From: Bacteroidota bacterium
GTDB lineage: Bacteria > Bacteroidota > Ignavibacteria > Ignavibacteriales > Ignavibacteriaceae
NCBI GenBank assembly: GCA_021824565.1
Contig: JAKAKL010000121.1
Span: forward strand, 1-64,000
Direction: 5' to 3'
Length of the DNA: 64,000 bases
Positions 27,118 to 50,643 of this stretch are shown here, piece after piece (position 1 is the stretch's first letter; each line of letters starts with the position of its first letter). Made by a program: the position numbers and the translations under genes. The notes under the pieces are model-generated. The model saw nothing but the letters and a program-made list of their open reading frames with translations. It did no database searches and was not told the origin of the DNA.

Positions 27118-27829
27118 TTTCCTTCTGCATTAAGTTTGGATTAAATTTAATAAAAAACTTGGTACCGACACCTTGAGTACTTTCAAAATATAAATCAGCC
27201 TGATATTCCTGCAGGAGCATTTTGCAAACACTTAAGCCAAGTCCGGTTCCTTTTTCTTTGCTTGTAAAAAAATCTTGAAAGACTTTTTCTTTATCATCTT
27301 CGCTTATTCCGCTTCCGTTATCTTCAATTTTCCAGATTACAAAATCACCATCTTCCTTGTAAGTGTTTATTATTATCTTACCGCCGCTTTCACATGACTC
27401 AATTGCGTTTGTAATTAAATTCAAAAATACTTGCAGAAGTTTGCTTTTATCATAATGACCGTTCGGAATGCCGTTATCAAGGAAAACTTTTATATCTATA
27501 TTCTTCTTAAGCGCACTGGGAAGCATAATATTAACGGCGCTGTTCGTAATATCGTTAATAGAACAGTCATTCAAATTGTTCGCGCTTCTTCTTGCAAATG
27601 TTAAAACATTATCCATTAGATATTGAATGCGTGCTAAGGCATCCTTACATACTTCAATAGATTCATTGGCTTCGGCGGGAAGTTCGCCTTCTATCATATT
27701 AAGATAATCTAAATTTAATTTGATTGCGGAAAGAGGGTTTCTTATTTCATGCAGTAAGCTTGCTGTAAGCTTCCCCATGATTTGAAGTTTGTTGTCCTGG
27801 ATATTATCTAAAATTTGCGACATGGTCAT
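27107..27829 (-). CDS. Cytoplasmic histidine kinase, FlgS-like
   Basis: The 240-aa protein is a minimal kinase: HisKA with His27 in SLLHEIRNPLSAIKLN and an ATPase domain with the NLITNAIES N box and KGTGLGLSVCKMLL. It has no sensor domain, membrane segment or PAS domain. Its 3' end overlaps the sigma-54 activator gene, so the pair is translationally coupled. FlgS kinases are soluble and read flagellar export apparatus assembly; the same is inferred here, although this protein is shorter than Campylobacter FlgS. Confidence 0.88.
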   Translation of the reverse strand: MTMSQILDNIQDNKLQIMGKLTASLLHEIRNPLSAIKLNLDYLNMIEGELPAEANESIEVCKDALARIQYLMDNVLTFARRSANNLNDCSINDITNSAVNIMLPSALKKNIDIKVFLDNGIPNGHYDKSKLLQVFLNLITNAIESCESGGKIIINTYKEDGDFVIWKIEDNGSGISEDDKEKVFQDFFTSKEKGTGLGLSVCKMLLQEYQADLYFESTQGVGTKFFIKFNPNLMQKENGL

Positions 27830-31655: not shown

Positions 31656-31682
31656 TTATCGGAAGTTGATTTTAAAAGTTTA
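31656..31682 (-). promoter_or_regulatory. Sigma-28 promoter of flagellin
   Basis: Minus strand: TAAA at 31682-31679, 15-base spacer, TCCGATAA at 31663-31656. One base off the FliA consensus and identical in both boxes to the cheW promoter. The predicted start is near 31649, giving a leader of about 82 bases. Confidence 0.85.
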
Positions 31683-33207: not shown

Positions 33208-33210
33208 AAA

Positions 33211-34716: not shown

Positions 34717-34724
34717 AAAATTTT

Positions 34725-37700
34725 TCAGGAATATTTAATATCAGAAATTTTCTTCAGAAGATTTTCTGCGGTGGCAGACCACGTATAACTTTTCATATCT
34801 TGAGCCGCACTTCGACCAATCATCTTAATTTCTTCGCGGTTAAAATATGCGTATTCCAGCTTTGAGATAACTTCATCAAAATCAGGTTCTTCCCAATCGC
34901 TAATTAATTTTTTGTCATTATCGTATACTTTAAATTCATTCATGTCGCTCAACAATATTGAATTGCCAGGCGTAAGAATATCTCTTTGACCGGTATTAAA
35001 AGATGCTATCGCGGGCTTTCCACAAGCCATATATTCCATCAACACTAAATTTGTCCCGCCTTCACACCGGTTAGGAAATAAGCCAACATCTGTTTGAGAA
35101 TAAATGCCGGCAAGCTCCGTATTTTGAACGAGAGGCAAAGTAATTACTCGGTTAAGGTCTAAGCCGTTAACCCTATAAATGCTGCTCATTACCTCCGTCC
35201 AGTTTTTGCCTTGATAGATATAACGTATATGCTTTGATAATTTCATTGACTCCATTGTGTATTCCCATCCGTTATACCAGGCGTTAAGCAGAACGACATC
35301 TTTATATTTTTGTTGAAGAACTTTTACTGCTCTTAAAACAATATCCTGACCTTTGCGAAGTTCGAATTTGCCGCCTGAGAAAATCACAAAAAGATCGCTG
35401 CTGGTTTTTTCATTGCGCAGGTAAAAAATTTCTGGATCGATTCCCTGCAAAAGCACATCACAATTTTTTATACCGCTGTCGTACATTTTTTCAAGACACC
35501 AGGAAGAGCCGGCAAAGATCAAATCATATTTTTTTGAATTCTGTATCGAAGTGTTTGTCAACTCATTTTCAAAAAATGTATATCCAAAATTCTTTTGCCC
35601 GGATATGTCGAACATTCTATTAAAGTTTAGGTCGGAAATAGTATGAAGTATTTTTCCGTCTATAAATTTTTGTGATAATAAATCCTTGTTGCCGTTAATA
35701 TCAATGACATTAATTTTCTTAGCCAATTCTCTTTTAATATAGTTGCTGCAAACTGCCCATCCGAAGTTTGCTCCGTTTGTCATTGCCAGGTACAAACTTT
35801 CATCCGTCTGATTTTTCTTCTTTGCAAACGGGGCGGTTTGGAAAGCCTTAATAGTATTATTTTTTTTATTTTCAATTGCTAAACTCAAATCATTATTAAT
35901 TTTTTCAATTACACTAACCCAATCATAAGGTCTTGTTTGTCTATAAAGTTTAATTGAAGGATACCAGGGCGTATCATCTCTGTCAAGCATCCAGCGCCAA
36001 TCCGGCGAGATAGAAATCAGCAGCCAGGTTTCTTTCCCAAGCGCGCCCGAGAGATGCGCAACAGAAGTATCGACAGTAATTAGTAAGTCAAGATTTAAGA
36101 TAGCTCCGGCGGCATCTTTTAAACCTTCGTTATAATTTTTTAAGTCAACAATTTTGTCTCTGTAATTTGATATTTGTTCCAGAGCCGGTCCAAGCTGTAG
36201 GCTAAATATTTCAACATCCTCTCTGTCAATAATCGGTTTAAATTTTTCCAGCGGACATGACCTTTCTTTGTCTCCTTTATGTTTTGGATTGCCAGCCCAA
36301 ACAAGCCCGATCTTAAATTTTGTATTATGGTTAATTATTTTCTCCCACTTTGAAGTAATTTCATTTTCGATTTTTATGTATGGGATTTTGCACGGTACCG
36401 AGTTTACTTCTGTTGAAAAGTAAAATGGCAGACTCAGTATCGGAATATGATAATCATAATCAACATCATCCTCGCTGACATTACTTGTATCAATCCGCTT
36501 ATCATAAACTGGTAAATCTTTGAACAGCTTAAAGAGATATTCGGCGCACTCAAATATTACGAATGCGCCTTTCTCTTTTAACATTGGTAAATATCTAACG
36601 AACTGTATCAAATCGCCAAGCCCTTGCTCTGAATACACCAGAATTTTTTTCCCAAGAATGTTTTGATTAGTCAATCTGGGCTTCTTTAAAGTTCTCACAG
36701 GAAATTCAGGTCTCTTAATGCGCCATTCATATTCTTCCCATCCGGTTTTAAAATTACCCAAGAGCAATAAGCAGTGAGCGCGTCCATAATGCAGTTCTAT
36801 ACTTTCCGGCTTAATTTTTAAAGCATCTTCAAAAAATTCCAGTGCGTCTTTAACATTGCCTCCTTTTAATTTTAAATATCCCATCTCGGTAAACGCCAGC
36901 TCTTTTTCATCGTCATTAAGCGGAAGTTCATTATATATTTTTTTAGCCTCGGAAATTTTATTTAGCTTAGATAATATATATGCCGATCTAATTGCGGCTG
37001 GAACTGAATCGGGAATGAAATATAAATATTTTTGATAGCAGCTTAGAGCCTGTGCGTACTTGCCTTGCTCTTCATAACAATATCCGAGATTAAAATATAT
37101 TTCCGGCTCCTCTTTATGAAGCGGAATTAAGTCGTTAAAAATCTTTTCAGCCTTTTCAAAGGACTTAAGCTTAGTCGCAATTACTCCGAGATTCAATATT
37201 GCAAACAGATGATTAGGCTTGGCTTGAAGAACCTTATTAAACGCCTGATAAGCAGATTCATAATAGTCCATCTTTAAGAAGCAAAGTCCCAGATTATATT
37301 GATAGTCATACTCACCGCTTAATTGCGTCGCTGCGTAGTAATTCTTGACTGCCTCATTAAAATTTCTCGACTTGAAATAATAATTGCCGAGATTGTTCTG
37401 CGCTTTTGCGTTCGACGGATTTTCTTCGACTAATTCTTTTAGAATCTTTTCAGCTTTATCGTAAATTCCCTGTTCCACATAAATCAAAGCCAGATTATTT
37501 TTCGCATCAAAATGCCCGGGCATAAACTCTAAAGCTTTTTGATATTGGCACTCAGCTTCGTCATACTTATTTAATTTTTGATAGCATAGACCTAGATTAT
37601 AATGTGCATCAATGTGAGTGTCGCATATTTTAATTACCTGCTCGAAATATTTTGAAGCGGCTTCGTATTCATTCAAATTTAATTTTATAATCCCCAGGAA

Positions 37701-37817
37701 ATTTAGTACGTCGTAGTCAAGCTGATTTAAACGGATTAAATCTTCCAGAATATTTTCGGCGTAAGAAAATTTTCTTTGGTTGAAATAAGCAACTGCTTCT
37801 TCATACAGGTCGGGCAT
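34725..37817 (-). CDS. TPR + GT9-like + GT4-like fusion glycosyltransferase
   Basis: The 1030-aa protein has about ten TPR units (1-370), a GT9-like domain (about 385-640; VYSEQGLGDLIQFVRYL, GLVWAGNPKHKGDKERS, ITVDTSVAHLSGALGKETW), then a GT4-like domain (about 660-1025; LQGIDPEIFYL, FSGGKFELRKGQDIVLRA, NRCEGGTNLVLMEYMACGKP). The E-x7-E type signature of GT4 enzymes is visible in the last motif. Two catalytic domains on one TPR scaffold suggest consecutive transfers to a bound protein. That is inference; no acceptor is known. Confidence 0.82.
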   Translation of the reverse strand: MPDLYEEAVAYFNQRKFSYAENILEDLIRLNQLDYDVLNFLGIIKLNLNEYEAASKYFEQVIKICDTHIDAHYNLGLCYQKLNKYDEAECQYQKALEFMPGHFDAKNNLALIYVEQGIYDKAEKILKELVEENPSNAKAQNNLGNYYFKSRNFNEAVKNYYAATQLSGEYDYQYNLGLCFLKMDYYESAYQAFNKVLQAKPNHLFAILNLGVIATKLKSFEKAEKIFNDLIPLHKEEPEIYFNLGYCYEEQGKYAQALSCYQKYLYFIPDSVPAAIRSAYILSKLNKISEAKKIYNELPLNDDEKELAFTEMGYLKLKGGNVKDALEFFEDALKIKPESIELHYGRAHCLLLLGNFKTGWEEYEWRIKRPEFPVRTLKKPRLTNQNILGKKILVYSEQGLGDLIQFVRYLPMLKEKGAFVIFECAEYLFKLFKDLPVYDKRIDTSNVSEDDVDYDYHIPILSLPFYFSTEVNSVPCKIPYIKIENEITSKWEKIINHNTKFKIGLVWAGNPKHKGDKERSCPLEKFKPIIDREDVEIFSLQLGPALEQISNYRDKIVDLKNYNEGLKDAAGAILNLDLLITVDTSVAHLSGALGKETWLLISISPDWRWMLDRDDTPWYPSIKLYRQTRPYDWVSVIEKINNDLSLAIENKKNNTIKAFQTAPFAKKKNQTDESLYLAMTNGANFGWAVCSNYIKRELAKKINVIDINGNKDLLSQKFIDGKILHTISDLNFNRMFDISGQKNFGYTFFENELTNTSIQNSKKYDLIFAGSSWCLEKMYDSGIKNCDVLLQGIDPEIFYLRNEKTSSDLFVIFSGGKFELRKGQDIVLRAVKVLQQKYKDVVLLNAWYNGWEYTMESMKLSKHIRYIYQGKNWTEVMSSIYRVNGLDLNRVITLPLVQNTELAGIYSQTDVGLFPNRCEGGTNLVLMEYMACGKPAIASFNTGQRDILTPGNSILLSDMNEFKVYDNDKKLISDWEEPDFDEVISKLEYAYFNREEIKMIGRSAAQDMKSYTWSATAENLLKKISDIKYS

Positions 37818-37832
37818 AATAGTAACCGCAGC

Positions 37833-38327
37833 TTAATTATTAAAAGATATTGAATAATGATCTGCAGGAAGCTGTAAAAGAGCATTTACTTTTTGAAGCC
37901 CGCCTTTAGCAAATAAATTGTTGCTGTCGTTCTTCAAGCTCCACTCAAACATTGTTTTAGCTTTTTCATCTTCGCTTTGAAGATAAAAAACCTCGCCGAG
38001 CCCTGCGCATGCTTGAGATGATTCGGGATTTAGATTAAGAGCGGTTTCAAATGAACTTCTTGCATCGCCGGTTTGATTTAGTCCGAGATAAATAAATCCC
38101 TTCAAGTTTTCGTAAGCTGATATAACATCGTTGCTGCCGTCTTCGCTGTATTGCGAATAGAAAAGCTGCTGATTGTCGTTAAGTGCCTGGAGAGCTTGGG
38201 TAAATTTTTTCATGTCAAAAATTTCATATATAGCGCTCAAAATTTTCAGAAGAATTTCACGAATGTTTTCTTCTTCGTTTTTCGCCGGATATGTTTTGCC
38301 TTCGTGAGTATTATTGTTGGTCAGCAT
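37833..38327 (-). CDS. Small TPR protein
   Basis: The 164-aa protein consists of about three TPR-like units (about 40-155) without signal peptide or membrane segment. Its segment SQACAGLGEVFYLQSEDEKA resembles NAYAGLGEVYYAAGDYKQA in the C-terminal TPR of the 1613-aa neighbour, so it is probably a duplicated, free-standing copy of that module. It may bridge the large glycosyltransferases or hold acceptors. It lies 15 bases upstream of the 1030-aa gene. Confidence 0.75.
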   Translation of the reverse strand: MLTNNNTHEGKTYPAKNEEENIREILLKILSAIYEIFDMKKFTQALQALNDNQQLFYSQYSEDGSNDVISAYENLKGFIYLGLNQTGDARSSFETALNLNPESSQACAGLGEVFYLQSEDEKAKTMFEWSLKNDSNNLFAKGGLQKVNALLQLPADHYSISFNN

Positions 38328-38351
38328 AATATTTTCCTTTCTTAGTACTGA

Positions 38352-41300
38352 TTATTTAAAACTTAGAATTCCGTCTTCTTTTGTTTTCTCGATCTTCAAT
38401 TCTTGATCATACTGCCCGTAAATATCTTTTATTTTGTTATTAGATTTAACAACACCGTTTAAAGCTATCTTATTATTCGGATCAATTTTTATTGCACGCT
38501 CAAAATAAATTAAGGCTTGTTTATAATCTCCCGCGGCATAGTAAACCTCTCCTAATCCGGCATAAGCATTTGTAGAATTTTTGTTTTCTAGCAATGCGTT
38601 CTCAAATTGTTTTTTTGCTTCGTTGAATTTTGTGGATTTAAATTCAGCTATAGCTAATATCAAATAAAAATTTTCGAGATACGCATGATCAATAATTGAA
38701 TTGTTGGTTCTAACCTGAGTTAAAATATTCGCGGACTCCTTAATTATATCCCCATAAGAATTATCATTCGACCGGCGTATAAATTCTGCAATTGATGCTT
38801 GAATAAATAATCCGTTTTCTCTTTTCTCCAACAAATCCATTGCCATCTTAAAATATTGCTCGCCATCGTTAGCGTTCTTGACCGGTGCTAATTTATTTTT
38901 GATCCTTATGATCTCATTAAAATCAGGTATATATTTTATAAAGTATTCATGCTGCACTTTAGTGTTTTCATCATCCGTCAGCGATTTGTTTTTATGCTCT
39001 GCACTTTCAGGCGAATAAAAATATAAACCAAGATTTTCATTTAAGTGCAAAAATTTTGCTGTACGGCTTATTCTAAGCCAAAACTCATAATCGCCCACAA
39101 TGCGGAGTTCTTCATTAAAATACCCGTATCTTTCATGCATGCTTTTTTTCCACATGGGCTGTGGTCCGAGAAAGCAGCCGAACAAAATTATATCCCTATC
39201 AAAAGAAGCCCAGCGTGTCACTGTCTTTGGAGTTTTTGAATTCCAATTGTCATTCGGTTTTGTTGTTAAATACGAATCAGCATACACTACATCTATTTCA
39301 GAGTTTTCAGCGAATGCTGCCGCCATAATTTCCAGAGCATCATGTCTATGCCTGTCATCAGTATTAGCATTAGTAATTAGATTTCCGCGGCAGGCTTTAA
39401 TACCAATATTCCAGGCGCTATAAATTGTCTGCCTATTTTCCGTTTCGATATAGTTTATGTTGGAATATCTTTTCTGAAACTCCGCTACAATATTTTTTTC
39501 ATTTTGCTCGGAACCTGTATTTACAACAACAATTTCGAGCTGCCCTTTTTTAAATAAAGTTTGGTTTATTAAATCTTCCAAACAGCCTCGTATAAATTTT
39601 TCAGAATTATACGTCGAAACAATTGCTGAAACTTTAAGTTTAGTACTTTTATCCTTTATCGAATCTAATAATTCTTTAGCTTCTGTATAATTAGGTTTAG
39701 CTTTTAATACTTCAGGTAGTACTTTTAAAGCAAAAGAATAATTTTTAATATTTACTGCCATAAGAGAGGCAAGGTACCCCGTTCTCCAATGTGACATACC
39801 CAGTTTAAAAGCTACAACATAATAATTAAAAGCTTCTTCCCATCTATTTTTATTTTGACAATATAGCCCCATGAAGAAAAATCTATACGCTTCTTGAGGA
39901 TTCTGCATAATATTTTCTAAGGTAATACTTTCAAACACCTCTGAGTCTAAGGATAAAAATTCATTTTCAGCATTTATGAATTTAGATAAATCAGCTTTTG
40001 GCCCTAAGAAAAATTGCTCTCCAAGCGTTTTATATGCATTCATTAATCTTGGTGTTGACCATATTTTATATATTAGCTTGTTGACATTATCTAAGTGAAC
40101 GATTTCATGATCAGTCAAGCCATTATGTGTTTTCAAAATTTCTTTTATCTTAGCTAATAAAAGATTAGCACTTGTCTTCCAAGAAAATCTTTTAGCATTT
40201 ATTATCCCTTTTTCTATAAGCGGGTCTCTAACTGATTTAGATCGAACTCTTATTAATATATCTTTCATCGCAGGAACATCATCCTCATTAACATAATAAG
40301 CAGCATTTCCAGCAACTTCAGGTATTGAAGAATTCTTACATGTTATAACAGGGCATCCGGATTTCATTGCTTCCAAAATCGGCAATCCAAAACCTTCGTA
40401 CTTTGATGGATAAACCATTGAAATTGCCCCACTTAATGCCACAGATAATTCCTGGTCTGATAAATAAAATATACTATATTTAATTCCTTTAAAAAATGGT
40501 TTAAACTCATCTTCCAGCTTCGGATTTCCACCTGTCAATACAATTTCAAATTTATTCTTATCCTTTAAAAGTGCAGCAGCCTTAAAAAATAAGATAAAAT
40601 TTTTATAGCCGGTTCGATTCCCGCATAAAATATAATAAGGCTTTATAATGTTATACTTCTTTTTAAATGCAGTTATTTCTTTTTCGCTATGTAATTTGAA
40701 ATTATCGCTAACTGCGTTATTTATTATTGATATGTTTTTATTTGCTTTATCAGGATAATTTTTAACGAAATCATTTTTTGTCGAAACGGAAATAGAAAAA
40801 TATTCTGAAGCTCTATTTATGGAATTAATTTTACTAATCCATTCCGGATTTGATAAATCCATACCTGTTATTTCCGGGATAAAATCATGAAGCATCATTA
40901 AATATCTTGTTTCGGTGGTATATGTATAGTATGTTGAAATAAACAGGTCGGCTTTCTCCTCATTGCAAATGTCTTCCAAATATTTGGCATCGGCATTAGG
41001 ATAATATTTATTATAAAAGTTTATTACTCTTTTTTCTATTCCTTCAATGTAAGGCGAAGTATTTTCTCTGTCTAAGAGTAAAATATTTTTCCTAAATTCC
41101 GTCTTCCCGATTTCTGACAAAAGCGATAGCCATACACGGCTTATTCCAACTGGTCTGTTTTGCTGTATCTGGAATATCACGCCATCAATAATAATTTTAT
41201 TTCCTTTTATATTACTTGTAATTGAAGTTTTTACACTATCATTGTTTTTTGCAGAAACTATGCTTTGTAGTTCCTTGAGTATTGCAAATAGATGCTTATC

Positions 41301-43193
41301 CAGTGTAAAATTTTCCTTCACATAATCACTGCCTTTTTGGGATATTCTTACTAATAAATTATTATCATTTTGTAATAAATCTATAGCGTCTCTAAGGCTC
41401 TCCTGGTCGTTGTAATATATTAAATGTTCCTTATCTTCAAATAGATCATCAATCTTTTTAATATTAGTTCGATTTGTAATTAGAGCATTTCCACAAGCCA
41501 AAGCTTCATAAACTCTAGTCGGATGATTTGAAAATATAGACGGCAAATTAATGGCTATTTTATATTTATTATAATCTGAGGCAATTTCCTCGACATTTAC
41601 AGGTTTGTCAGTATAAGGTATTAAATCAATTAAATGATTTTCGAACAAATACTTTAGTAATTTCCTTCGTTCTTCATAAGTTGCATCTGTGTAAAATGGG
41701 TTGTACTTCCCTCTAAAAAACGGTTTATGAATTCTATTTCCAAAATTTACTTTGGGATAAAATACCGAATCATCCACTCCAAATGGCTGCCATATTGAAG
41801 GAAGTTTTATACTTTCAATAAAATCCTTATCGGAAAAATCCGTATATACAATTAGATCGGCAATTTCAGCTGCTGATTGGAATGCTAATTTCATTTCATC
41901 TGTATTAAACAACCTACAATTATTAGCTAAAGACTCCTGAACGTATAAAACCTTTTTTGCATTGGAATTAAGAAACAATTCTTTCCAATAACCATTTTTA
42001 TGTAAAGCTTGAGAATGCCAGTCAAACCCTGCAAGAAATAAAATATCGCTGCTATTCTCTTTTAAATATTTCTCAAGACCATCATCGTATTGAAGATTAG
42101 AATCGTTCCAATTTGCTTTAGGAGCAAAAGTTTTATTATGAACGCCAATTTTTTTAGCAGCGTTTTCCCATCCTTTTCCAACTCCCCATGCATGTTCTCC
42201 TGTTACCTGTAGAACAATATCTAATTTTGGATTACTGCCATTTGACTTTAATATATTTATCGATGATATATTTGAGCTCTTATTATCTTTAATATTATTA
42301 TTGTTTTTCTGCGAAGAATAAATTTTTCCGTTCCCTTTTCTCGGTATGCACTCATCCATATTAAGCATTTGCTGCATAGTTTGATAAAACTGCATTTTTA
42401 CTTTGTTGGAAAAATCACTTATATCTAGCCCAAAATGATCTATGACTTCCTTTTCCTGCAGAACATTAAAAAATTCCACAAGTAATCCCGGAGTTATCTG
42501 CAAGTTGGAATATTTGTTTATTATTCCCCACTGCTCAACCCAGCGCTTTAAGCCGCCGGTTTTTGTTTTAATTTCATCATACCATCTATAAGCCGAAAGC
42601 TCTTCATTAACAGTTAAAACACCAAACTTACTGGCAACCCTAAACCAGTATTCCAGGTCCATTGCATAGTGCAGCGACTCGTCAAGATAACCTACTTCAT
42701 TGATTGCTTTTGCATTTATAAAAGTTGAGGGCTGTAGTATGTAATTAGATCCCTTTAAAAGCGTATCATAATCGAATATAATATTATGCGAATACCTTCT
42801 AATCCGATTTCCTTTTTTATCCGCAACAGCTCCGTTACCGATATAAAGCCCGGCTTTAGGATCAGACGAATACATCTCAGCAATTAGATTTAAAGCTCCC
42901 GGATAATAAAAATCATCTGAATTCAGCCATGCTATTATGTCCCCGGTAGCAATTTTAAAACCTTTGTTTATTGCAGCAGTCTGCCCGTTATCTTTTTCGC
43001 TTACCCAATAAGTAAGATGTGACTCATACTTTTTAATTATTTTAACACTTTTATCAGTAGAGCCGCCGTCAATAATTATATATTCAAGATTTGGGTAGTT
43101 TTGTTCGATAATACTTTTTATCGTATCTTCTAAAAATTCTCCTTGATTATATGAAGGGGTAATAATACTTATTTTGGGAAGTGTTGAATTCAT
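38352..43193 (-). CDS. Giant multidomain glycosyltransferase (GT2, CgeB-like, GT4, TPR, GT2, TPR)
   Basis: The 1613-aa frame has no internal stop or frameshift. Domains in order: GT2 (about 8-250; ISIITPSYNQGEFLEDTIKS, GDIIAWLNSDDFYYPG), a CgeB-like GT4 domain (about 320-640; ILFLAGFDWHSQALHKN, FSNHPTRVYEALACGNALI), a GT4 domain (about 670-1035; YYILCGNRTGYKNFILFFKA, YPSKYEGFGLPILEAMKSG), TPR-like helices (about 1100-1195), a second GT2 (about 1205-1430; VSAIVSTYNSEKFIRGCLED) and C-terminal TPR (about 1440-1600). Four apparent catalytic units on one chain suggest stepwise glycan assembly. Acceptor and sugars are unknown. Confidence 0.82.
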   Translation of the reverse strand: MNSTLPKISIITPSYNQGEFLEDTIKSIIEQNYPNLEYIIIDGGSTDKSVKIIKKYESHLTYWVSEKDNGQTAAINKGFKIATGDIIAWLNSDDFYYPGALNLIAEMYSSDPKAGLYIGNGAVADKKGNRIRRYSHNIIFDYDTLLKGSNYILQPSTFINAKAINEVGYLDESLHYAMDLEYWFRVASKFGVLTVNEELSAYRWYDEIKTKTGGLKRWVEQWGIINKYSNLQITPGLLVEFFNVLQEKEVIDHFGLDISDFSNKVKMQFYQTMQQMLNMDECIPRKGNGKIYSSQKNNNNIKDNKSSNISSINILKSNGSNPKLDIVLQVTGEHAWGVGKGWENAAKKIGVHNKTFAPKANWNDSNLQYDDGLEKYLKENSSDILFLAGFDWHSQALHKNGYWKELFLNSNAKKVLYVQESLANNCRLFNTDEMKLAFQSAAEIADLIVYTDFSDKDFIESIKLPSIWQPFGVDDSVFYPKVNFGNRIHKPFFRGKYNPFYTDATYEERRKLLKYLFENHLIDLIPYTDKPVNVEEIASDYNKYKIAINLPSIFSNHPTRVYEALACGNALITNRTNIKKIDDLFEDKEHLIYYNDQESLRDAIDLLQNDNNLLVRISQKGSDYVKENFTLDKHLFAILKELQSIVSAKNNDSVKTSITSNIKGNKIIIDGVIFQIQQNRPVGISRVWLSLLSEIGKTEFRKNILLLDRENTSPYIEGIEKRVINFYNKYYPNADAKYLEDICNEEKADLFISTYYTYTTETRYLMMLHDFIPEITGMDLSNPEWISKINSINRASEYFSISVSTKNDFVKNYPDKANKNISIINNAVSDNFKLHSEKEITAFKKKYNIIKPYYILCGNRTGYKNFILFFKAAALLKDKNKFEIVLTGGNPKLEDEFKPFFKGIKYSIFYLSDQELSVALSGAISMVYPSKYEGFGLPILEAMKSGCPVITCKNSSIPEVAGNAAYYVNEDDVPAMKDILIRVRSKSVRDPLIEKGIINAKRFSWKTSANLLLAKIKEILKTHNGLTDHEIVHLDNVNKLIYKIWSTPRLMNAYKTLGEQFFLGPKADLSKFINAENEFLSLDSEVFESITLENIMQNPQEAYRFFFMGLYCQNKNRWEEAFNYYVVAFKLGMSHWRTGYLASLMAVNIKNYSFALKVLPEVLKAKPNYTEAKELLDSIKDKSTKLKVSAIVSTYNSEKFIRGCLEDLINQTLFKKGQLEIVVVNTGSEQNEKNIVAEFQKRYSNINYIETENRQTIYSAWNIGIKACRGNLITNANTDDRHRHDALEIMAAAFAENSEIDVVYADSYLTTKPNDNWNSKTPKTVTRWASFDRDIILFGCFLGPQPMWKKSMHERYGYFNEELRIVGDYEFWLRISRTAKFLHLNENLGLYFYSPESAEHKNKSLTDDENTKVQHEYFIKYIPDFNEIIRIKNKLAPVKNANDGEQYFKMAMDLLEKRENGLFIQASIAEFIRRSNDNSYGDIIKESANILTQVRTNNSIIDHAYLENFYLILAIAEFKSTKFNEAKKQFENALLENKNSTNAYAGLGEVYYAAGDYKQALIYFERAIKIDPNNKIALNGVVKSNNKIKDIYGQYDQELKIEKTKEDGILSFK

Positions 43194-43202
43194 ATCAATA
43201 AA

Positions 43203-46200
43203 TTATTTTGTTATAAGTGCAACAAATTTTAAATAGCATGTGGAATGAACATCTTTTTGATTTACAACTCTATACAGCCGTATGCTCATGTCTCCAAGTC
43301 TGTTAATTATTCTTTTAGAAAAGCTATCTACATCATAGAATCTTCCATGTCGGTTATTCCAGCCTTTTATTCCGCATACTTTTGCTTCAGAATCAAATAC
43401 TACATTCTGTTCTACCGCAACTTCAGGCTCGGTTATTATACAATATTCTTCAGCCATATAAAGTGGAAGTATGCAAACACTGCCGCCTTTTTTCAGCACC
43501 CTATTAACTTCTTTAATAAACCGGATGTCTGCATCTCCTTCAAAGTGTTCTAACGAACAATGCAGCGCCATCTTGCTTGCAAACTCGGCGGGCAAAGGCA
43601 TATTTGCTGCGTCGCCTCCGATTGTATTGCCGTTTAGCCCTGCGGGATAATTTAGATCCTGTCTATACGTATTCACACCGTATAGTTTGCCGTATATCTC
43701 AGGAACGGGACTACCTTCACTTGCTATGTCTATATAAATGTCATTTTTGTTCATGTTTAACAGCTTTGCTGCAACGTAGTGTTCAAGCGATTTTTCATAT
43801 ATGTTGAATGAATAATAGCTGCTGTAAGTTTTACTATATCCTGCTTTTTCAAAATAATTTTTATAATCATCTATATCCACGACAAAGTCTATTACTTCCA
43901 GTCCTTTGGAATTAAATGTTTGAGTAATTTTTTCATCATTCAATCCGGGATAGCCTATTTGCTTCGGAAATCTCAATCTTCCAAAATATTCTTTAAAGGA
44001 ACTTGCCGCATCAATAGGAACTGTGGCCGATTTAATATTTTCTTTTAAATAACGGTAATTATCGTATGCTACTATATTTTCAGGCTCAATATTAAAAATC
44101 GAATTAAGAGTCTCTACCGCCGATTCGATTTTATTTTCGAGTATATCAACCACGGCCAGATTATTAAGTATCTCTACATTTTCTTTTCCCAGAGTTAACG
44201 TTTGGGAAAGTAAATTACGCGCAGATAAATAATCTTTATTCTTAATTAAAGACTCGGATAAATTTATTGCGTCTTTAACTAACATTCTATCATTTTTGTT
44301 CTGTTCAGAGCAGTTATTGTTTTTTTTTGTTTCCGATTGATTTACTAAACAAAGAGATGTATTCGATTCTATCCCGCCTTTTCTATTTACATAATAGACT
44401 TCAACTTCATTAAGATTTACAAAATTCGATACAATTTTCTCTTCTTCGGATCGAACAATGGACTCAACAAATATCCTAGACTTACTAGAATTTTTATTTA
44501 TGGTTTCGAATAAGGTTAATCCGATAAGTTCGGCTGAAATATTTTTTATACAGCGGGCTTCATTGAATTTGCAGTACCAGTTACATCCAAAACAATCCAT
44601 CGGGTTTACGATCAGCGATGTAAGGTTAGAGTAAGGCATAAACCTGCCGAAATGTCCTCCCCCTATAACTATAACGTTCGGGATTCCCACTGCACATGCT
44701 AAATGAGCTAAACCGGTTTCCGCACCGACGGCAACAGTACAGCGTCTTAAAATTGCAGCAGATTGTTTAATGGAAGTTTTACCTGACAAATCATATACAG
44801 GAACAGTAATGTCACATATGTTAATGCTGTTAGCTTGTGCATCGGCAGATGAGCCAAGTACAATAACGGAAAATCCATTTGCAACACAAAAATCATTAAT
44901 CCCTTTGCCGTATTTATCGTACATTCTTAGACTATGTTGTGCCCCGGCAAATAAAGCAATAGTTGATTCCTTTTTAAGATTTAATTTTGCAAACAATTCA
45001 TTTGCAAATAATTCATCTTCCTGATTAAACCATATGGAAGGTTCATTATTTTCCTCATTAATGTCCAACCCCTTTAAGAAGTCAGAATGCCTTTTAAGCT
45101 CTGATTTATAATAACCATCGCTTTTTATTAGCTTATTATATAGGCTGTTATATTTTTGAAGTTCTTCTTTCGGCATGTTGGAAGATGAGCCATCTAAAGC
45201 AATTTTTTCAACAGCAGGGGCTTCAGAAGCGAATAATTCGGAAACAACGGTTCTCGAATAAATCGAATTTAGTAGGAGATCATATTTTTTTGATCTTAAA
45301 TCATCGATAATTTTTATCTTATAATTTAAATCATCAAAAAGAAGTCTTTCATCAAACGAAAGTATCTTACTAACAAAAGGTACAGCTTCATAAAGTTCCG
45401 CAATATGATTTTGGCAGATTACATCTATCTCAGCTTTAGGGTATGCGTTGTGGATCTTTTCTAGAGTAGTCAATGCTATTAAATTATCGCCTATTGAATC
45501 GGTTCTTACAAATAGTATTTGCTTGGTTATTGTTTTATTTTGGTTCTGTTGTTCTACAGCCGGAGAAAACTTTGCAATACAAAATCCAAATTTTTCCTTC
45601 GAAGATATTATTATCTGAAAACGTGAATCATTTTGCATGTAAATAAAACTTTTATGATGCTTAATATGGTATATATCGTCTAGAGCTATTATACAATCTT
45701 TCTTCAAACGATCGATAACATATTTAAACTCTTCAAAACCTATATGCCCAGCACTGTCTAATAGAATAAAGTCTGGAGAATATTCAAACTGCCATAAGCA
45801 TTTATCCAGTAAATCGTCATCTATATCATTGAAATTTGTTTCGTTAAAATATTTTTCCGGTCTATTTGCTTCATGGTGATCAACAAAAATATTTTCATAC
45901 TCAACATTATCAACGGTATGATTTTTTATTTGATGAATCGACGGAAGTAAATTTCTTGGCATGGATAAGCCATTTAATAACGTTACATATTTTTCTAATC
46001 CTGCTTCCGCTATATTTTTCTTTGCTTCATTAAAATTCAGTGGATTAACTTCAATTGAGAAAAATTTAAAGTCATCATAACCCATTTTCTTAATAGTGGA
46101 AGCTATAATACTTGTAGTACCAGTCCCTAAATAAGTTCCGGTTTCGATAATTTTCTTTGGTCTATAATTCTGAAAAATATTTTCTATACTTGTTGCAAAC

Positions 46201-47588
46201 TCTGATTCAGTGTTTATTTCTGTAAGGTCCAGTTGTGCGGAGTAATCTTCTGCGACTTTTAATTTTTCATTATTTATATTTTTTACGGCTGAAATCTTCG
46301 AAAGTTCATTAAGATTTCTTTGTGGATTCAAATTATTTGGATCTAGCTGAACTGCTTTTTCAAATAAGGTCTTTGCAGATGGAAAATCAGCCTTTAAGAA
46401 AAATACTCCTCCTAACTGATTAAAGCCCTCGGAAGAATCCGGATTTAGTCCCAAATAAGTCAGACATAACTTTTCGGCTTCTAAAATATTTCCCTTACTG
46501 AGCAACTCGTCTGTTATACTAATAAATTCTGCTTCAGTAAGATTTTGAATATTGGAAATATCCTGGTTATCTCGAATTATTTCTCCCTCAAAATCACCGA
46601 AAGAATTACTCGCAGTTGCTTGAGAAGAAACTTCTTCTATGTTATTATTATTACTAAATACACTGCTTGCATATCCGATAGAAGAGTTGTTATTTATTAC
46701 AGAGTAGTTACCGGAACCGTACGCTGAATCGTAACAAAGCGCAGGTTCAGTATCGACATTTGAAATTACAGATAAGTTTTTATTCTCATTTAATATTGTG
46801 AGTCTCTGCTTAATAGTTGCAAAGTTTTTCTCATCTTCATAAGAAGGAATTATTTTATTTTTTACATATTTAGTTCTGCAAACTTCCTCTAAATCCAAAT
46901 CTATGTTAATTGCGTATGTCGGGATTGACTGGGCGGAACATAAACCGCGTCTATACAACTCCATTGCAAAAGGCCAATCGGCACCGAGTTCCCTGTCAGG
47001 TTTTTCACAATAAAGCTCCCAACTTTTTGCAACATCAACACCGAATGTTTCGTTATAAAACTTGTCAATCTTTTTAGCTGAAGTGTTCCCGTAATTTTGC
47101 AGTATAATTTCAGCCGCTTCGCGCGTAAATAATACTATTCCTGCTCCCATATTCCAGTTCAAAGAATAACCAAAACGGTTAACAAGTATTCTGCTTTCCG
47201 CCGATCTTACAGTTGCCGCTCCGCAGTTTAACCCTTCATTTTCGCAAAGCTGAAACAACTTCTCCAGCTCCGGAAACCAATCCGCGCTAAATTCTATATC
47301 ATTCTCAATCAGACCGCAATAATCATAACCTAAATCTAGTGCCCGCTTTAATCCAAATCTTATTGCATTATCAGGTCCGCCTGTTATATTTTTATTTATC
47401 TCAACAAATCGGGTATTTGTTAACTCAATTTGAGATGGTAAATTTTTACCCTCTTCAGTTATACTGCCATCAACCCATATTAAGTCAAAGCCCGAACATA
47501 GATCAATGCTTTTCAAAGATCGTCTTGAAAATTCAACTCTGTCTTTACTGCTGAAAGCAAATGCTATTCTAGGATTTGATTGGTTCAT
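43203..47588 (-). CDS. Giant glycosyltransferase-methyltransferase fusion with TPR
   Basis: The 1461-aa frame is continuous. Order: GT2-like domain (about 5-260; IAFAFSSKDRVEFSRRSLKS, DYCGLIENDIEFSADW), TPR (about 350-430), class I methyltransferase of CmcI-like type (about 450-680; KIIETGTYLGTGTTSI, CIIALDDIYHIKHHK), a GT9 heptosyltransferase-like domain (about 690-1050; ILFVRTDSIGDNLIALTTLE, AVGAETGLAHLACAVGIPNV), TPR (about 1110-1200) and a C-terminal methyltransferase-like domain (about 1230-1461; MALHCSLEHFEGDADIRFI). Sugar O-methylation during glycan build-up is the natural reading but is inference. It lies 37 bases downstream of the STELLO-like gene. Confidence 0.8.
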   Translation of the reverse strand: MNQSNPRIAFAFSSKDRVEFSRRSLKSIDLCSGFDLIWVDGSITEEGKNLPSQIELTNTRFVEINKNITGGPDNAIRFGLKRALDLGYDYCGLIENDIEFSADWFPELEKLFQLCENEGLNCGAATVRSAESRILVNRFGYSLNWNMGAGIVLFTREAAEIILQNYGNTSAKKIDKFYNETFGVDVAKSWELYCEKPDRELGADWPFAMELYRRGLCSAQSIPTYAINIDLDLEEVCRTKYVKNKIIPSYEDEKNFATIKQRLTILNENKNLSVISNVDTEPALCYDSAYGSGNYSVINNNSSIGYASSVFSNNNNIEEVSSQATASNSFGDFEGEIIRDNQDISNIQNLTEAEFISITDELLSKGNILEAEKLCLTYLGLNPDSSEGFNQLGGVFFLKADFPSAKTLFEKAVQLDPNNLNPQRNLNELSKISAVKNINNEKLKVAEDYSAQLDLTEINTESEFATSIENIFQNYRPKKIIETGTYLGTGTTSIIASTIKKMGYDDFKFFSIEVNPLNFNEAKKNIAEAGLEKYVTLLNGLSMPRNLLPSIHQIKNHTVDNVEYENIFVDHHEANRPEKYFNETNFNDIDDDLLDKCLWQFEYSPDFILLDSAGHIGFEEFKYVIDRLKKDCIIALDDIYHIKHHKSFIYMQNDSRFQIIISSKEKFGFCIAKFSPAVEQQNQNKTITKQILFVRTDSIGDNLIALTTLEKIHNAYPKAEIDVICQNHIAELYEAVPFVSKILSFDERLLFDDLNYKIKIIDDLRSKKYDLLLNSIYSRTVVSELFASEAPAVEKIALDGSSSNMPKEELQKYNSLYNKLIKSDGYYKSELKRHSDFLKGLDINEENNEPSIWFNQEDELFANELFAKLNLKKESTIALFAGAQHSLRMYDKYGKGINDFCVANGFSVIVLGSSADAQANSINICDITVPVYDLSGKTSIKQSAAILRRCTVAVGAETGLAHLACAVGIPNVIVIGGGHFGRFMPYSNLTSLIVNPMDCFGCNWYCKFNEARCIKNISAELIGLTLFETINKNSSKSRIFVESIVRSEEEKIVSNFVNLNEVEVYYVNRKGGIESNTSLCLVNQSETKKNNNCSEQNKNDRMLVKDAINLSESLIKNKDYLSARNLLSQTLTLGKENVEILNNLAVVDILENKIESAVETLNSIFNIEPENIVAYDNYRYLKENIKSATVPIDAASSFKEYFGRLRFPKQIGYPGLNDEKITQTFNSKGLEVIDFVVDIDDYKNYFEKAGYSKTYSSYYSFNIYEKSLEHYVAAKLLNMNKNDIYIDIASEGSPVPEIYGKLYGVNTYRQDLNYPAGLNGNTIGGDAANMPLPAEFASKMALHCSLEHFEGDADIRFIKEVNRVLKKGGSVCILPLYMAEEYCIITEPEVAVEQNVVFDSEAKVCGIKGWNNRHGRFYDVDSFSKRIINRLGDMSIRLYRVVNQKDVHSTCYLKFVALITK

Positions 47589-47625: not shown

Positions 47626-48621
47626 TTAATTAAATTCATTTAGCCATAGATTTAGTAACTTTAATTCTTTTGCCTCTACAATAGAATGCTTATGCAGCTC
47701 TTCATAAGCTAAAAATAAATTATCCTTCATTGATAATTCTTTATTGATTTTATTTTTTACAAGATCAACTACCTTTTCAGAAAATAAATACACCGGCACT
47801 TCGGACTCAAAATCTTTTAGATAATCATGTTGGTTTCTATTTTGGAATACAGTTGCTTTCGTAAAACCGACTTTGTATCCGTATAACCACATAATCGGCT
47901 GGGCTATTAATCCTCTAAGAATATCTGTGAACCTAAAGCTGACATAAGCCGGTAAATACAAAAGTGGAAATAATTCTTTTCGTACAGCTGTATTTTGAGA
48001 GTTGAACGGGCATATTGTCCCAGTATTCAAAACTATCGGGGCACGATCATTAAAGTAACACGGTTCATTATTTGTCAATCTATATATTGCATCAACATCC
48101 GGATCCATATCCGCTAAACCCTGCCAAACACCAATGGAACTCATTTTAATTTCAAATTGACATGTTTGAAAACTATCAGCGCCTTTATTGATTTTGTTAA
48201 GTGGAAAACCTCTAGGCCAAATTTTTTTGCTGGAAAAAATTTTGTAAACGTTGAAATAATCCTCCCCATTATTTGTTGATTCAAAATAACCTTCAAACTC
48301 TGGAAAGCTCCAATCTGATTTTGGTATGTTATCATCGTCGGTATCAATAATAACCTCGGCATCTGCTTTAATAGCACTTAAATAACCCAGCATTTTTCTT
48401 GAATAATGGTTATAAGGTAATTCTGACGTAATTGGTAACTTGCTCTTAAATTGATCGTCAACCGAGATATAATGACAATTACTTAGCTCCCAGTTGGTCG
48501 GAGTTTTTTTATCGGCAACTACTATCAAATTACAGTCATCAATTTCGGAAAATTTTCTCACTGCCTCCGTTGGATGCGCTATCGTTGTTATAATTATATA
48601 TTTATTTTTCAGGCCTATCAA
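47626..48621 (-). CDS. STELLO-like (DUF288) putative glycosyltransferase
   Basis: The 331-aa protein opens with YIIITTIAHPTEAVRKFSE and LIVVADKKTPTNW and has a DDDN acidic cluster (VIIDTDDDNIPK), features of the STELLO/DUF288 family of glycosyltransferase-like proteins. A later segment FNSQNTAVRKELFPLLYLPA also fits. There is no membrane segment, unlike plant STELLO. It is the first gene of the large glycosyltransferase run, preceded by a long leader region with the dyad at 48801. Sugar specificity is unknown. Confidence 0.75.
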   Translation of the reverse strand: MIGLKNKYIIITTIAHPTEAVRKFSEIDDCNLIVVADKKTPTNWELSNCHYISVDDQFKSKLPITSELPYNHYSRKMLGYLSAIKADAEVIIDTDDDNIPKSDWSFPEFEGYFESTNNGEDYFNVYKIFSSKKIWPRGFPLNKINKGADSFQTCQFEIKMSSIGVWQGLADMDPDVDAIYRLTNNEPCYFNDRAPIVLNTGTICPFNSQNTAVRKELFPLLYLPAYVSFRFTDILRGLIAQPIMWLYGYKVGFTKATVFQNRNQHDYLKDFESEVPVYLFSEKVVDLVKNKINKELSMKDNLFLAYEELHKHSIVEAKELKLLNLWLNEFN

Positions 48622-48726
48622 TTCTATTTTATATTGTGTTTTTATGTTTCGCTAAAAAAACTTCTATTAACTTTTTTGTTTTACCTTATTCACATTTTCT
48701 TAAAAGATTATTTTGGCTAAGTAAGT

Positions 48727-48741
48727 CTAAAAACTATACCA
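48727..48741 (-). promoter_or_regulatory. Weak sigma-54-like element before the STELLO-like gene
   Basis: Minus-strand TGGTATAGTTTTTAG keeps the GG at -24 but lacks the GC at -12. It is reported because it shares TGGTAT with the element at 50128-50142 and sits at nearly the same distance (60 bp against 59 bp) from a perfect dyad. It would leave a leader of about 94 bases. Confidence 0.25.
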
Positions 48742-48800: not shown

Positions 48801-48818
48801 TTGGCTAATTTTAGCCAA
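48801..48818. promoter_or_regulatory. Perfect 18-bp dyad TTGGCTAATTTTAGCCAA, copy 1
   Basis: Two 8-bp arms, TTGGCTAA and TTAGCCAA, are separated by 2 bp. The same 18 bp plus four more identical bases recur at 50201. It lies 180 bp upstream of the start of the STELLO-like gene. It is a candidate binding site for a dimeric regulator, most likely the FlgR-like protein. Confidence 0.6.
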
Positions 48819-48937
48819 TTTCCAATTTTGTTTCAATTAAGAATAAATATTAAAAAAAATTCTAGTCGAAACGTAAAAATCAAAATGTATTTGGAAAATT
48901 ATTCGACACGAAAAAAGAATCTAAGATAGAGTTCCTA

Positions 48938-49168
48938 GTAACTTGAAATGCAAAGTAAGAAAGTTTAAACGCTGTTAAAGAAACTTTAATTGCAATTCAT
49001 GATTCTTTAAAGAAAATTAAAGAAACTCAGAACACGATATAAGAAACTTGGAATGCGATGTAAGAAACTCTATACGCTGTTTAAGAAACACAAATTGCGA
49101 TGCAAGATTCTTAGAAGACAATTAAAGAAACTCAAATCGAGATGTAAGATTTTTTGAAGACGATCAAA
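48938..49168. repeat. Degenerate 21-bp tandem array, 11 units
   Basis: Eleven contiguous 21-bp units start at 48938, 48959, 48980, 49001, 49022, 49043, 49064, 49085, 49106, 49127 and 49148, without a single indel. Most begin GAAACT and end ATGTAA or similar (e.g. GAAACTTGGAATGCGATGTA); others begin GATTCT and end ATTAAA. Possible further diverged units flank it (48917-48937, 49169-49189). In-frame stops recur on both strands, so it is not coding. Confidence 0.85.
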
Positions 49169-49213
49169 GAAACGTTTCTTTTGTCGTATCAAATCGTTAG
49201 CCGTCCTATATCT

Positions 49214-49360
49214 TTAATCTAAGTCTAATTCGGTATTGCTAATTAAAGCCAAAACAGGTTCAATTTTAAAGTTTTGTTTCCAAATTTTTGAAACAACCGG
49301 CCAAAAAGCAAGATAATATGGATTTGAGTCTGAACTAAGAATGACTTTATCAATTTTCAT
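49214..49360 (-). pseudogene. Truncated N-terminal fragment of a glycosyltransferase-locus protein
   Basis: A 48-codon frame starts with ATG directly after the stop of the 225-aa gene. The text MKIDKVILSSDSNPYYLAFW and VVSKIWKQNFKIEPVLALIS looks like the conserved N-terminus of a larger protein family found in surface-glycan clusters (the pattern DKVI-SSD-NP-YL-FWP-V and EPVLALI is familiar, without a name). It stops after two secondary-structure units, and the 21-bp array follows 25-45 bases later. I read it as a gene truncated by deletion or by expansion of the repeat region; a genuine 48-aa peptide is less likely. Confidence 0.5.
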
Positions 49361-50038
49361 TTATTCTTTATAATCCTTAATAAATTTCCAATATTCATGA
49401 TGACGCAAATTCCGCTCATCGAAAACATCTCCTACAAATTCATAATCATTTCTTTTGGTAGGGAAAGAATGTATTTGCGCACCGTAAGAAATATTAAATT
49501 CAGAATGTTCAAAACAATTGCCTTGAACAAGCGGATATACAACTTGCCCTAGAAAATCTTGGTCAATTCCTTTTCTGTCATATCTTCCCCATTGCTTAAT
49601 CAAATGCTTAAGCCCGATTTCTTTCATTATTCCGTTTCTGCTACCCCACATTCCGCCTAGAATCGGAAATTGATGATTGGGGTGGTCTCTCATGATATGG
49701 AAATCTTTGTCTGAACTGAGCCACTCAATGATTGCCGCTATTTCTCTATCTGAAAACCTTGAATCACAATCTCTTGAAAGACAAATATTAACTTCAGGGT
49801 CAACCGAAGCTAAAAATCTCCAGAACATTCCATCATAATCGTTAATTTTTTCTACGAGAATTATTTCAGAATTTGGAGCAATAAGCGATTCTATTAATTC
49901 CTTATTACAATTCTTATCAACGTAAAACCTACATTTCCAACCGCGGAAATAGTTAACCGCAAGCTTTATATTCTCTTTAGCTCCAAACCAGTACATAGGT
50001 TCATTACCCCAAAGAGAAAATGATATTACATTTTTCAT
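49361..50038 (-). CDS. Putative glycosyltransferase with a DCD motif
   Basis: The 225-aa soluble protein has a nucleotide-sugar type N-terminus (VISFSLWGNEPMYWFGAKEN) and an acidic motif in NICLSRDCDSRFSDRE (about 95-110), resembling the DxD of glycosyltransferase family A folds. Then MRDHPNHQFPILGGMWGSR and KGIDQDFLGQVVYPL follow, both recurrent in small glycosyltransferase-like proteins of surface-glycan clusters. The exact family is not recognised. The start is preceded by a sigma-54-like element and a perfect dyad, so it is probably controlled with the flagellar genes. Confidence 0.7.
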   Translation of the reverse strand: MKNVISFSLWGNEPMYWFGAKENIKLAVNYFRGWKCRFYVDKNCNKELIESLIAPNSEIILVEKINDYDGMFWRFLASVDPEVNICLSRDCDSRFSDREIAAIIEWLSSDKDFHIMRDHPNHQFPILGGMWGSRNGIMKEIGLKHLIKQWGRYDRKGIDQDFLGQVVYPLVQGNCFEHSEFNISYGAQIHSFPTKRNDYEFVGDVFDERNLRHHEYWKFIKDYKE

Positions 50039-50127
50039 TTTTAAAAATTTTTCTTAATACAAAATTCCTATTTGAAATTCTTAAATAGAAATTTTGAAAT
50101 GACTAGATAATTTTATTTGTATATTGC

Positions 50128-50142
50128 GCTAATTTCATACCA
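50128..50142 (-). promoter_or_regulatory. Sigma-54-like promoter of the 225-aa glycosyltransferase gene
   Basis: Minus-strand TGGTATGAAATTAGC has the exact GG-N10-GC core of sigma-54 promoters and agrees with the consensus TGGCACG-N4-TTGC at eight of eleven defined positions. The predicted start is near 50116, giving a leader of about 78 bases. Confidence 0.5.
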
Positions 50143-50200
50143 TATCTGTAAGCTAAAAATTTTATAACATATTACTAAAGAAATTGATATTTATTTACAT

Positions 50201-50218
50201 TTGGCTAATTTTAGCCAA
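50201..50218. promoter_or_regulatory. Perfect 18-bp dyad TTGGCTAATTTTAGCCAA, copy 2
   Basis: Identical to the dyad at 48801. It lies 59 bp upstream of the sigma-54-like element and 163 bp upstream of the gene start at 50038. Surrounding sequence differs from copy 1 beyond 22 bp, so the motif, not a large duplication, is conserved. Confidence 0.6.
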
Positions 50219-50254
50219 TTTCTATTCATATAAAATCTTGGGTTATTGGAACCT

Positions 50255-50342
50255 CTGATTATACTCTGATTGGCTTCTAATTATACTCTGATTGGCTTCT
50301 GATTATACTCTGATTGGCTTCTAATTATACTCCTATTGTACT
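50255..50342. repeat. 22-bp tandem repeat, four units
   Basis: Units at 50255, 50277, 50299 and 50321. The first three differ only at the third base (CTGATT or CTAATT, followed by ATACTCTGATTGGCTT), and the fourth is degenerate in its second half. High identity suggests recent slippage. No function is apparent. Confidence 0.85.
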
Positions 50343-50643
50343 CTTGCCGGAAAGACGTTTTGTAAAAAAGCTTGCCCTTTTTAATAGAATTAAAAGATTA
50401 TAAGTAACTATAGTTTCGCAATATCTTACGATGGGAGTTGTCAAAACCTAATCAAAAGATATTTTTGAGTTAACTTTAATTTATAATTACGCGTTTTCAA
50501 GCAAGATTTTCAGCGTTCATATAAATTTGAGAGAGTTTCAAAGAAAGACAATATCGAATATCAAAATGCTTTTTGCATAACTTAAGTTAGTAACCAATTT
50601 AGTTTTGTCCAAGTCTAATCTATAAAACAAAGTAGGAACTATT

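Follow-up and report, generated by a model that had tools for sequence, protein, structure and literature searches.

Do the flagellar genes and the glycosyltransferase genes that share a contig in a bacterium of the Ignavibacteriaceae answer to a common regulatory signal? The question is raised by the first 64,000 nucleotides of contig JAKAKL010000121.1 (assembly GCA_021824565.1, Bacteroidota bacterium, forward strand), hereafter the window, in which an 18-bp dyad, TTGGCTAATTTTAGCCAA, stands upstream of two genes of a glycosyltransferase locus and, in reduced form, upstream of flagellar genes. A sequence-only reading of the window had proposed that the dyad ties the locus to the flagellar sigma-54 regulon. 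Our comparison across genomes indicates that the dyad is likely the enhancer of a regulon that depends on sigma-54 and an activator of the NtrC type, and that unites flgB, fliL-fliM, an operon named HEAT/che by that reading and the flagellin-glycan genes, the last being probable flagellin-glycosylation genes.

In the window, the dyad is perfect at 48801 and 50201, keeps 15 of 18 positions at 17289, and is reduced to a half-site, read as TTTTAGCCA, before flgB; all features described here lie on the minus strand. The perfect copies, both putative enhancers, lie upstream of a gene for a STELLO-like glycosyltransferase of 331 aa with a partial match to PF03385 (dyad 48801–48818, gene 47626–48621) and of a gene for a 225-aa product with no Pfam match (dyad 50201–50218, gene 49361–50038). 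The degenerate dyad TGGCTAATATTAGGCA (17290–17305) precedes the HEAT/che operon, which is headed by a HEAT-repeat gene (460 aa, 15744–17126), and the putative enhancer half-site TGCACGATTTTAGCCA (10182–10197) precedes flgB (9695–10099; TIGR01396, above cut-off). Each is followed by a sigma-54-like element, i.e., the degenerate TGGTATAGTTTTTAGA before the STELLO-like gene (48726–48741), TGGTATGAAATTAGCG with GG-N10-GC before the 225-aa gene (50127–50142), CGGCACCAATTTTGTT before HEAT/che (17234–17249) and TGGCATCTATTTTGAA before flgB (10117–10132), at distances of 60, 59, 40 and 49 bp from the 16-bp dyad core to the TGG (CGG at HEAT/che) of the element; the positions and spacings are those that the sequence-only reading had given. 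With up to three mismatches allowed, the dyad matches the window six times strand-wise (three places) against 0.27 expected, and none of 100 shuffles reaches six. The assembly (4,594,733 bases in 148 contigs) contains no perfect dyads other than these two, and at up to three mismatches it adds only 17289 and one place on another contig (C60:503), the reversed-pattern control giving 3+3; the copy at 17289 is therefore not significant taken alone, and its support comes from relatives. A recent duplication of one promoter is ruled out as the origin of the two perfect sites, since their exact repeat extends over 22 bp (minus strand) and no other comparable stretch in the same orientation is common to both.

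The same arrangement recurs in relatives. A 22-mer search at up to three mismatches found 13 places in 11 of 59 genomes, eight of which belong to the 13 genomes of the genus, compared with four genomes for the reversed control, and among 391 genomes of the class 11 have the exact core TGGCTAAARTTAGCCAA, at 14 places in total, with none for the control. When dyads were picked by core alone, using the pattern TGGCTAAA[AG][AT]TAGCCA on the window and on the loci retrieved from relatives, 16 of 18 (12 of 14 genomes) proved to be followed by TGG-N-A-Y...T..G at 58–62 bp, and by no such match at any other position in the first 120 bp; one of the 13 22-mer places (G038:C46) has a core outside this pattern and was left out. 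The composite of dyad and sigma-54-like element was found at 27 places in 23 of 164 Ignavibacteriales genomes and nowhere in the reversed control, and 26 of the 27 gaps measure 57–62 bp though 54–66 bp were allowed. The remaining gap is 66 bp (G021:C223), and this composite and that at G435:C87, both kept in the count, may be chance.

A stricter composite, scanned over 84,980 species genomes, returned 17 stretches titled Melioribacteraceae (a family within Ignavibacteriales), Ignavibacteriales or unclassified Bacteroidetes/Bacteroidota, and one stretch under an Alphaproteobacteria title (L111); the match in this metagenome-assembled genome falls inside an open reading frame, with no gene of the TPR/coiled-coil family described below nearby, and is probably chance. 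The composite was not found in viral contigs. Dyads in G252 and G214, from another family of the class, were not counted, as they have no sigma-54-like element and a different context; the palindrome there (L046:9963 and L047:9925) lies between a histidine-kinase-like gene (PAS, by eye) and a gene for a 311-aa product.

The next gene was identified after 13 of the composites outside the window's genome, and in 12 it is a surface-sugar gene, encoding a UDP-galactopyranose mutase (twice), a DegT aminotransferase (twice), a TPR-glycosyltransferase (three times), a nucleotidyltransferase, a giant protein with methyltransferase, a giant pyruvyltransferase/glycosyltransferase, a UDP-GlcNAc 2-epimerase, and a copy of the 225-aa protein (67% identical, in G001, with dyad and sigma-54-like element upstream there too). 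The composite in G040 precedes a radical-SAM/methyltransferase giant, which is not clearly a sugar enzyme. G009, G004 and G001 each encode flagellin 17–28 kb past the composite, with contig and strand shared, and in the window this distance is about 17 kb. Wider gaps occur at two glycan operons, 68 bp before a cytidylyltransferase gene (G309) and 71 bp in G040, where the operon encodes homologues of the window's TPR and TPR-glycosyltransferase genes. Three dyad/sigma-54 pairs, at L170:15076, L168:13924 and L192:19726, have gaps of 71, 68 and 70 bp, one helical turn beyond the usual; they precede two glycan operons and a gene for a 914-aa protein that resembles the window's hybrid kinase.

For the flagellar genes, a search for FlgB gave a match in 98 of 156 genomes, of which we read the 30 best loci. 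A half-site TAGCCA ends 49–52 bp before a TGGCA/TGGTA sigma-54 element in 29 of these 30 genomes (13 genera, three families; 27 sites caught by script, and L142 and L143 by reading), the sole exception being L155 (G326), where no half-site was seen. The conserved half is the promoter-proximal one, although full palindromes stand at L137 and L153 and a near-full one at L156, and the element is present also before flgB of G040, outside the 30. Within the genus, a search with the flgB-type pattern gave 11 places in nine of 13 genomes, eight of them at flgB by coordinates, and three control matches. The element precedes fliL-fliM in all seven genomes with fliL in the fetched stretch, at a gap of 50–51 bp, and these include the window's own genome, on another contig (FliM of G056 is above the NCBIfam cut-off and FliL below it; the other copies are named by similarity). 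HEAT/che was readable in nine genomes, five of which score 16–26, a range that none of 177 control upstream regions reaches, with gaps of 40 bp in the window's genome (G000) and G006, 49 in G009, 50 in G007 and 51 in G056. Here it is the promoter-distal half, TGG[CT]TAATATT, that is found, at seven of the nine sites and nowhere in 600 kb of control strands. The sequence-only reading had counted HEAT/che among the targets; five of nine genomes bear this out clearly and three weakly, and it is the least firm operon outside the genus. All of these classes meet in G056, where the element stands before flgB, fliL-fliM, HEAT/che and a gene for a UDP-GlcNAc 2-epimerase. The proposed spacing in helical steps is likewise borne out, with gaps of about 40, 50, 60 and 70 bp across the flgB, fliL-fliM, HEAT/che and glycan promoters.

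These sites bear on two other views of the dyad. It might regulate surface polysaccharide generally, the flagellar link being one of neighbourhood only, and in the genus the exact palindromes with an identified next gene do precede sugar genes and not flagellar structural genes. This is improbable, however, as the element is present also at flgB and fliL-fliM, where its spacing is fixed, as G021 and G275 both have a full palindrome at flgB, and as G003, a member of the genus (99% complete, 7% contamination), yielded neither a composite nor a hit for FlgB, flagellin, the activator or the TPR/coiled-coil family. Our first idea, a polysaccharide-operon element without flagellar meaning, was rejected since flgB promoters of relatives carry the element at about 50 bp.

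Long polysaccharide operons can have antiterminators of the RfaH/LoaP kind, and the dyad could act as RNA, either as terminator of the upstream gene or as a leader hairpin for such a factor; it is able to fold into a hairpin, a single terminator-like hit falls at 50201, and it often stands a few bases after the TPR-membrane gene and precedes long glycan genes. We consider this very improbable, because flgB and HEAT/che keep mostly one half, so that no hairpin is kept, because the dyad keeps a fixed distance to the promoter element and is situated upstream of where transcription is predicted to start, and because the sequence itself is conserved, beyond pairing. Terminator-like hits in the region number three against 3.4 expected, and the dyad does not fit an intrinsic terminator, for which a G+C-rich stem, preserved by pairing and with a T run after it, would be expected.

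An independent view of the window comes from a matrix built from the flgB sites of 26 other genomes and run over the window with gaps of 30–75 bp. Its four best loci, flgB (46.7), 50217 (27.0), 48817 (22.9) and 17305 (20.1), are the four sites of the sequence-only reading; scores fall to 14.7 at the next independent locus and to 9.6 in the reversed window. The 50201 palindrome read on the plus strand together with a tandem repeat reaches 24.9, which we regard as a by-product. Degenerate tandem arrays were noted upstream of both perfect dyads, with units of 105 bp (48940–49173) and 22 bp (50253–50344); read on the plus strand (50202–50332), the palindrome is followed at 53 and 75 bp by copies of the 22-bp repeat that read TGGCTTC, and faces a DUF4097 gene at 50644, which may be coincidence. 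Over 35 flagellar and glycan loci (688 kb) the matrix places 35 sites above threshold, several of which are flgB training sites and a few reverse palindrome readings or places inside genes; the reversed 688 kb give three matches (best 22.3), and 300 kb of other regions give none. Together with the two perfect copies in the assembly, this shows that the dyads are not scattered genome-wide. That they are chance repeats in AT-rich DNA is hardly credible: at up to three mismatches reversed-pattern hits are about as many as real ones genome-wide, but the exact core and its control, the composites, the flgB sites and the matrix all argue otherwise, and the conservation in relatives that the sequence-only reading had set as a check was found.

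The promoter elements are less uniform. The -24/-12 consensus of sigma-54 is GG-N10-GC in a TGGCAY-N5-TTGC context. In the core-picked set, 15 of 16 elements have GG-N10-G (with G allowed at three positions), the exception being the STELLO site; in the 27 composites GG-N10-G is built into the pattern. The flgB elements are mostly TGGCA[TC]-N-TTTG[AG], the C being rarely kept. The sequence-only reading had described all four elements of the window as sigma-54-like; the one before the STELLO-like gene matches sigma-54 promoters poorly. The gene for sigma-54 itself, rpoN (PF04552), is present in the window's genome and in 154 of 160 genomes of the order, and a match was obtained in 22 of the 23 composite-bearing genomes, the exception being G021 (81% complete).

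Which protein would read the dyad? The window encodes, at 25726–27117, a response regulator of the NtrC type with a receiver domain, an AAA+ domain with GAFTGA and a Fis-type helix-turn-helix (HTH), intact as the sequence-only reading had stated, which we propose as the dyad activator; the overlapping gene at 27107–27829 encodes a histidine kinase of 240 aa, its proposed partner. The regulator falls below the NCBIfam cut-offs for FlgR (NF049963, 326 vs 750 bits) and FlbD (NF050807, 337 vs 750). At E 1e-150 or better, 94 of 152 genomes of the order have a close match, one in each. Among the 109 genomes with a completeness of 90% or more and a contamination of 5% or less, the presence of the activator matches that of FlgB in 104, with 70 having both, 34 neither and five being discordant (2 + 3); TPR-family hits in G371, G430 and G442 and FlgB hits in G012 and G441 (E 2e-6 to 7e-4) were dropped before the co-occurrence count. 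Of the 51 genomes in which both were found on one contig, 50 have the activator gene no more than about 20 kb from flgB. In the 30 best of the 94 copies, which come from three families, GAFTGA is intact throughout and 12 of 13 positions of the recognition helix, as delimited by us, are invariant; the mean majority across these copies is 0.97 in the HTH vs 0.78 in the receiver.

Several observations weigh against a single enhancer read by this activator. Activator and FlgB are discordant in G183, G227, G408, G460 and G455, and in G056 the activator gene lies 218 kb from flgB. G012 has three dyad/sigma-54 pairs, two from the composite search and a third from the core-picked set, yet neither activator nor flgB was found in it; FlgL-type and FlgG-like genes remain there, so that a missing contig is likely, though unproven. 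In G010 (85% complete) flgB and flagellin are present and the activator was not found, and in G011 (89% complete) a composite stands at a contig edge and FlgB, flagellin and activator were not found. At HEAT/che, the weak scores of 2.9, 6.6 and 8.1 (G309, G271 and G004; gaps 49, 52 and 41 bp) are reached by 10, 4 and 4 of the 177 controls, and G040 has no site at all. The STELLO element has GG-N11-G vs GG-N10-G at the other sites, and no more than six of the 27 composites retain the C with which the sigma-54 GC ends. In the matrix test, the best of 200 window shuffles reached 26.2, three reached at least 22.9 and 11 at least 20.1, and wrong-gap pairs in the real window reach 21.5; the sites at 17305 and 48817 thus rest on conservation. 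Finally, only 14 of the 30 best loci of the TPR/coiled-coil family, whose genes often stand directly upstream of the dyad and glycan genes, have a clear composite within 450 bp.

That no activator was found in G012 and G010, and that its gene lies far from flgB in G056, also suits a different protein, i.e., another flagellum-linked regulator (an enhancer-binding protein, a repressor or a DNA-bending protein) that would bind the dyad in place of the 25726–27117 product. Binding by this product is what we infer from sequence, a first look at the window's genome gave 107 candidate places for an activator-type protein, of which 10 were scored, and in Helicobacter and Campylobacter FlgR activates without enhancer binding (PMC3930126). 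We nevertheless regard another regulator as rather unlikely, given how closely the activator tracks FlgB and lies near flgB, and given a recognition helix that is near-invariant in three families, as expected for a fixed DNA target. The TPR/coiled-coil membrane protein beside the dyad was considered as the activator and rejected, as it has no sigma-54-activator or HTH match and its model is all-helical.

In the mechanism that we propose, a sigma-54 promoter has the dyad as its upstream activating sequence. The kinase probably phosphorylates the regulator, which would bind the dyad as a dimer, oligomerise, reach by looping the sigma-54 polymerase at the GG-N10-G 40–70 bp downstream, and open the promoter. 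One regulator would in this way drive flgB (rod and hook), fliL-fliM (motor switch), HEAT/che and the glycan genes leading up to flagellin.

Where the glycan genes would fall in the order of assembly is suggested by flagellin itself. The flagellin gene (30758–31567) has a promoter that resembles the sigma-28 consensus (TAAA...CCGATAA, 31656–31682), and a similar box lies upstream of flagellin in all nine genus members read (TCGATAA in G010); inspection by eye of the 150 bp upstream of flagellin in these nine showed no full dyad. Since flagellin has a sigma-28-like promoter of its own, the sugar genes would belong to the class made before flagellin, and the flagellin-modifying enzymes would be made with this middle class. 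The claim that glycosylation is switched on with early flagellar genes is thus retained in so far as the glycan genes are tied to the sigma-54 flagellar class, but these are not the earliest genes.

The STELLO-like gene opens a series of minus-strand genes that reaches to flagellin and, between the two, has genes for TPR proteins, glycosyltransferases and methyltransferases (31699–47588, with members at 31699–33207, 33211–34716, 34725–37817, 37833–38327, 38352–43193 and 43203–47588), and flagellin may be the substrate of the encoded glycosyltransferases. The STELLO-like protein has no relative in 58 other genomes searched, so the gene was probably acquired recently and came to stand behind one copy of the conserved enhancer. 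TPR and glycosyltransferase domains are combined in the product of 34725–37817 and, just below cut-off, in that of 33211–34716, both near flagellin. The HEAT-repeat protein of 15744–17126 shows weak similarity to NblB, below cut-off.

A more speculative extension, which we hold only tentatively, is a graded enhancer code read by one activator, in which the timing or strength of each flagellar class and of the sugar coat would depend on what form the site has and how far away it lies: full palindromes at about 60–70 bp for the glycan genes, mainly proximal halves at 50 bp for rod and switch, and distal halves at 40–50 bp for HEAT/che, in steps of about one helical turn.

The neighbour that often stands directly upstream belongs to an apparently undescribed family of about 615 aa, with TPR, long coiled coils and two hydrophobic, probable membrane helices (L021:6024-7877 and relatives), the first member of which has no Pfam match above cut-off. 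The family is present in 101 of 160 genomes of the order and almost equals the activator in following FlgB, with 70 genomes having both, 32 neither and seven discordant of the 109. In the 14 loci with a composite above threshold within 450 bp downstream the gap is 58–62 bp; of the others, five show weaker composites by eye (gap 57–64 bp) and two show composites above threshold at gaps of 49 and 35 bp, and among 180 control 3' regions one reaches a score of 12 and two reach 8.5. The composite lies 0.6–5.5 kb further from the gene in G009, G007 and G002, and the copy in the window's genome stands at a contig edge (G000:C34:444-2282), with no composite in the flank available. The AlphaFold model of the protein is all-helical with a mean pLDDT of 82, and no solved structure matches it at E 0.001 or better, the weaker matches being largely TPR proteins.

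Control of flagellin glycosylation by sigma-54 is a known principle from Xanthomonas and from Helicobacter and Campylobacter. In Xanthomonas oryzae, RpoN2 and FleQ control the gigX flagellin-glycosylation genes, and, much as proposed here, sigma-54 with an enhancer-binding protein puts glycosylation and chemotaxis genes in class II, flagellin being in the FliA-dependent class III there (PMC8657755). The present case differs in phylum, in having a response-regulator activator beside a kinase gene, and in its palindromic enhancer 40–70 bp from the promoter element. A putative flagellar glycosyltransferase gene controlled by RpoN has also been described (PMC5368276). The FlgS/FlgR-RpoN system of Helicobacter and Campylobacter likewise combines a kinase with an NtrC-type response regulator, and its RpoN-dependent genes include flagellin-glycosylation enzymes; however, FlgR works without enhancer DNA, that of H. 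pylori having no DNA-binding domain and that of C. jejuni not needing it (PMC3930126), whereas the HTH here is intact and nearly invariant and the enhancer is conserved. In Caulobacter, the enhancer-binding protein FlbD is specific to the flagellum, and the ftr enhancers dedicated to it stand at flagellar promoters of the sigma-54 type (PMC3930126, PMC3096577, PMC7064773). This resembles the present case, with the differences that Caulobacter flagellin genes are RpoN-dependent and its glycosylation genes are under CtrA (PMC7591256). Caulobacter FlmG binds flagellins via its TPR domain (PMC7591256), and the combination of TPR and glycosyltransferase domains near flagellin is similar here, with the window proteins being larger and multi-domain.

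What is new is the enhancer and regulon in another phylum. 'Ignavibacter' is absent from the main text of a survey of sigma-54 regulons (PMC12316311), and no report of this enhancer or regulon in the phylum was found in an open-access library in which most subscription journals are missing, other spellings not having been tried; flagellar gene control in Ignavibacteriota appears to be undescribed so far. The comparison defines an enhancer, names its probable activator and lists target operons that are conserved across the order; flagellum-linked sugar genes thereby become predictable from sequence. The coupling of flagellum assembly to flagellin glycosylation also becomes testable outside Proteobacteria, probably in the cultured, motile Melioribacter roseus. 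If true, our proposal suggests that in these bacteria one activator turns on the building of the flagellum and its sugar coating together.

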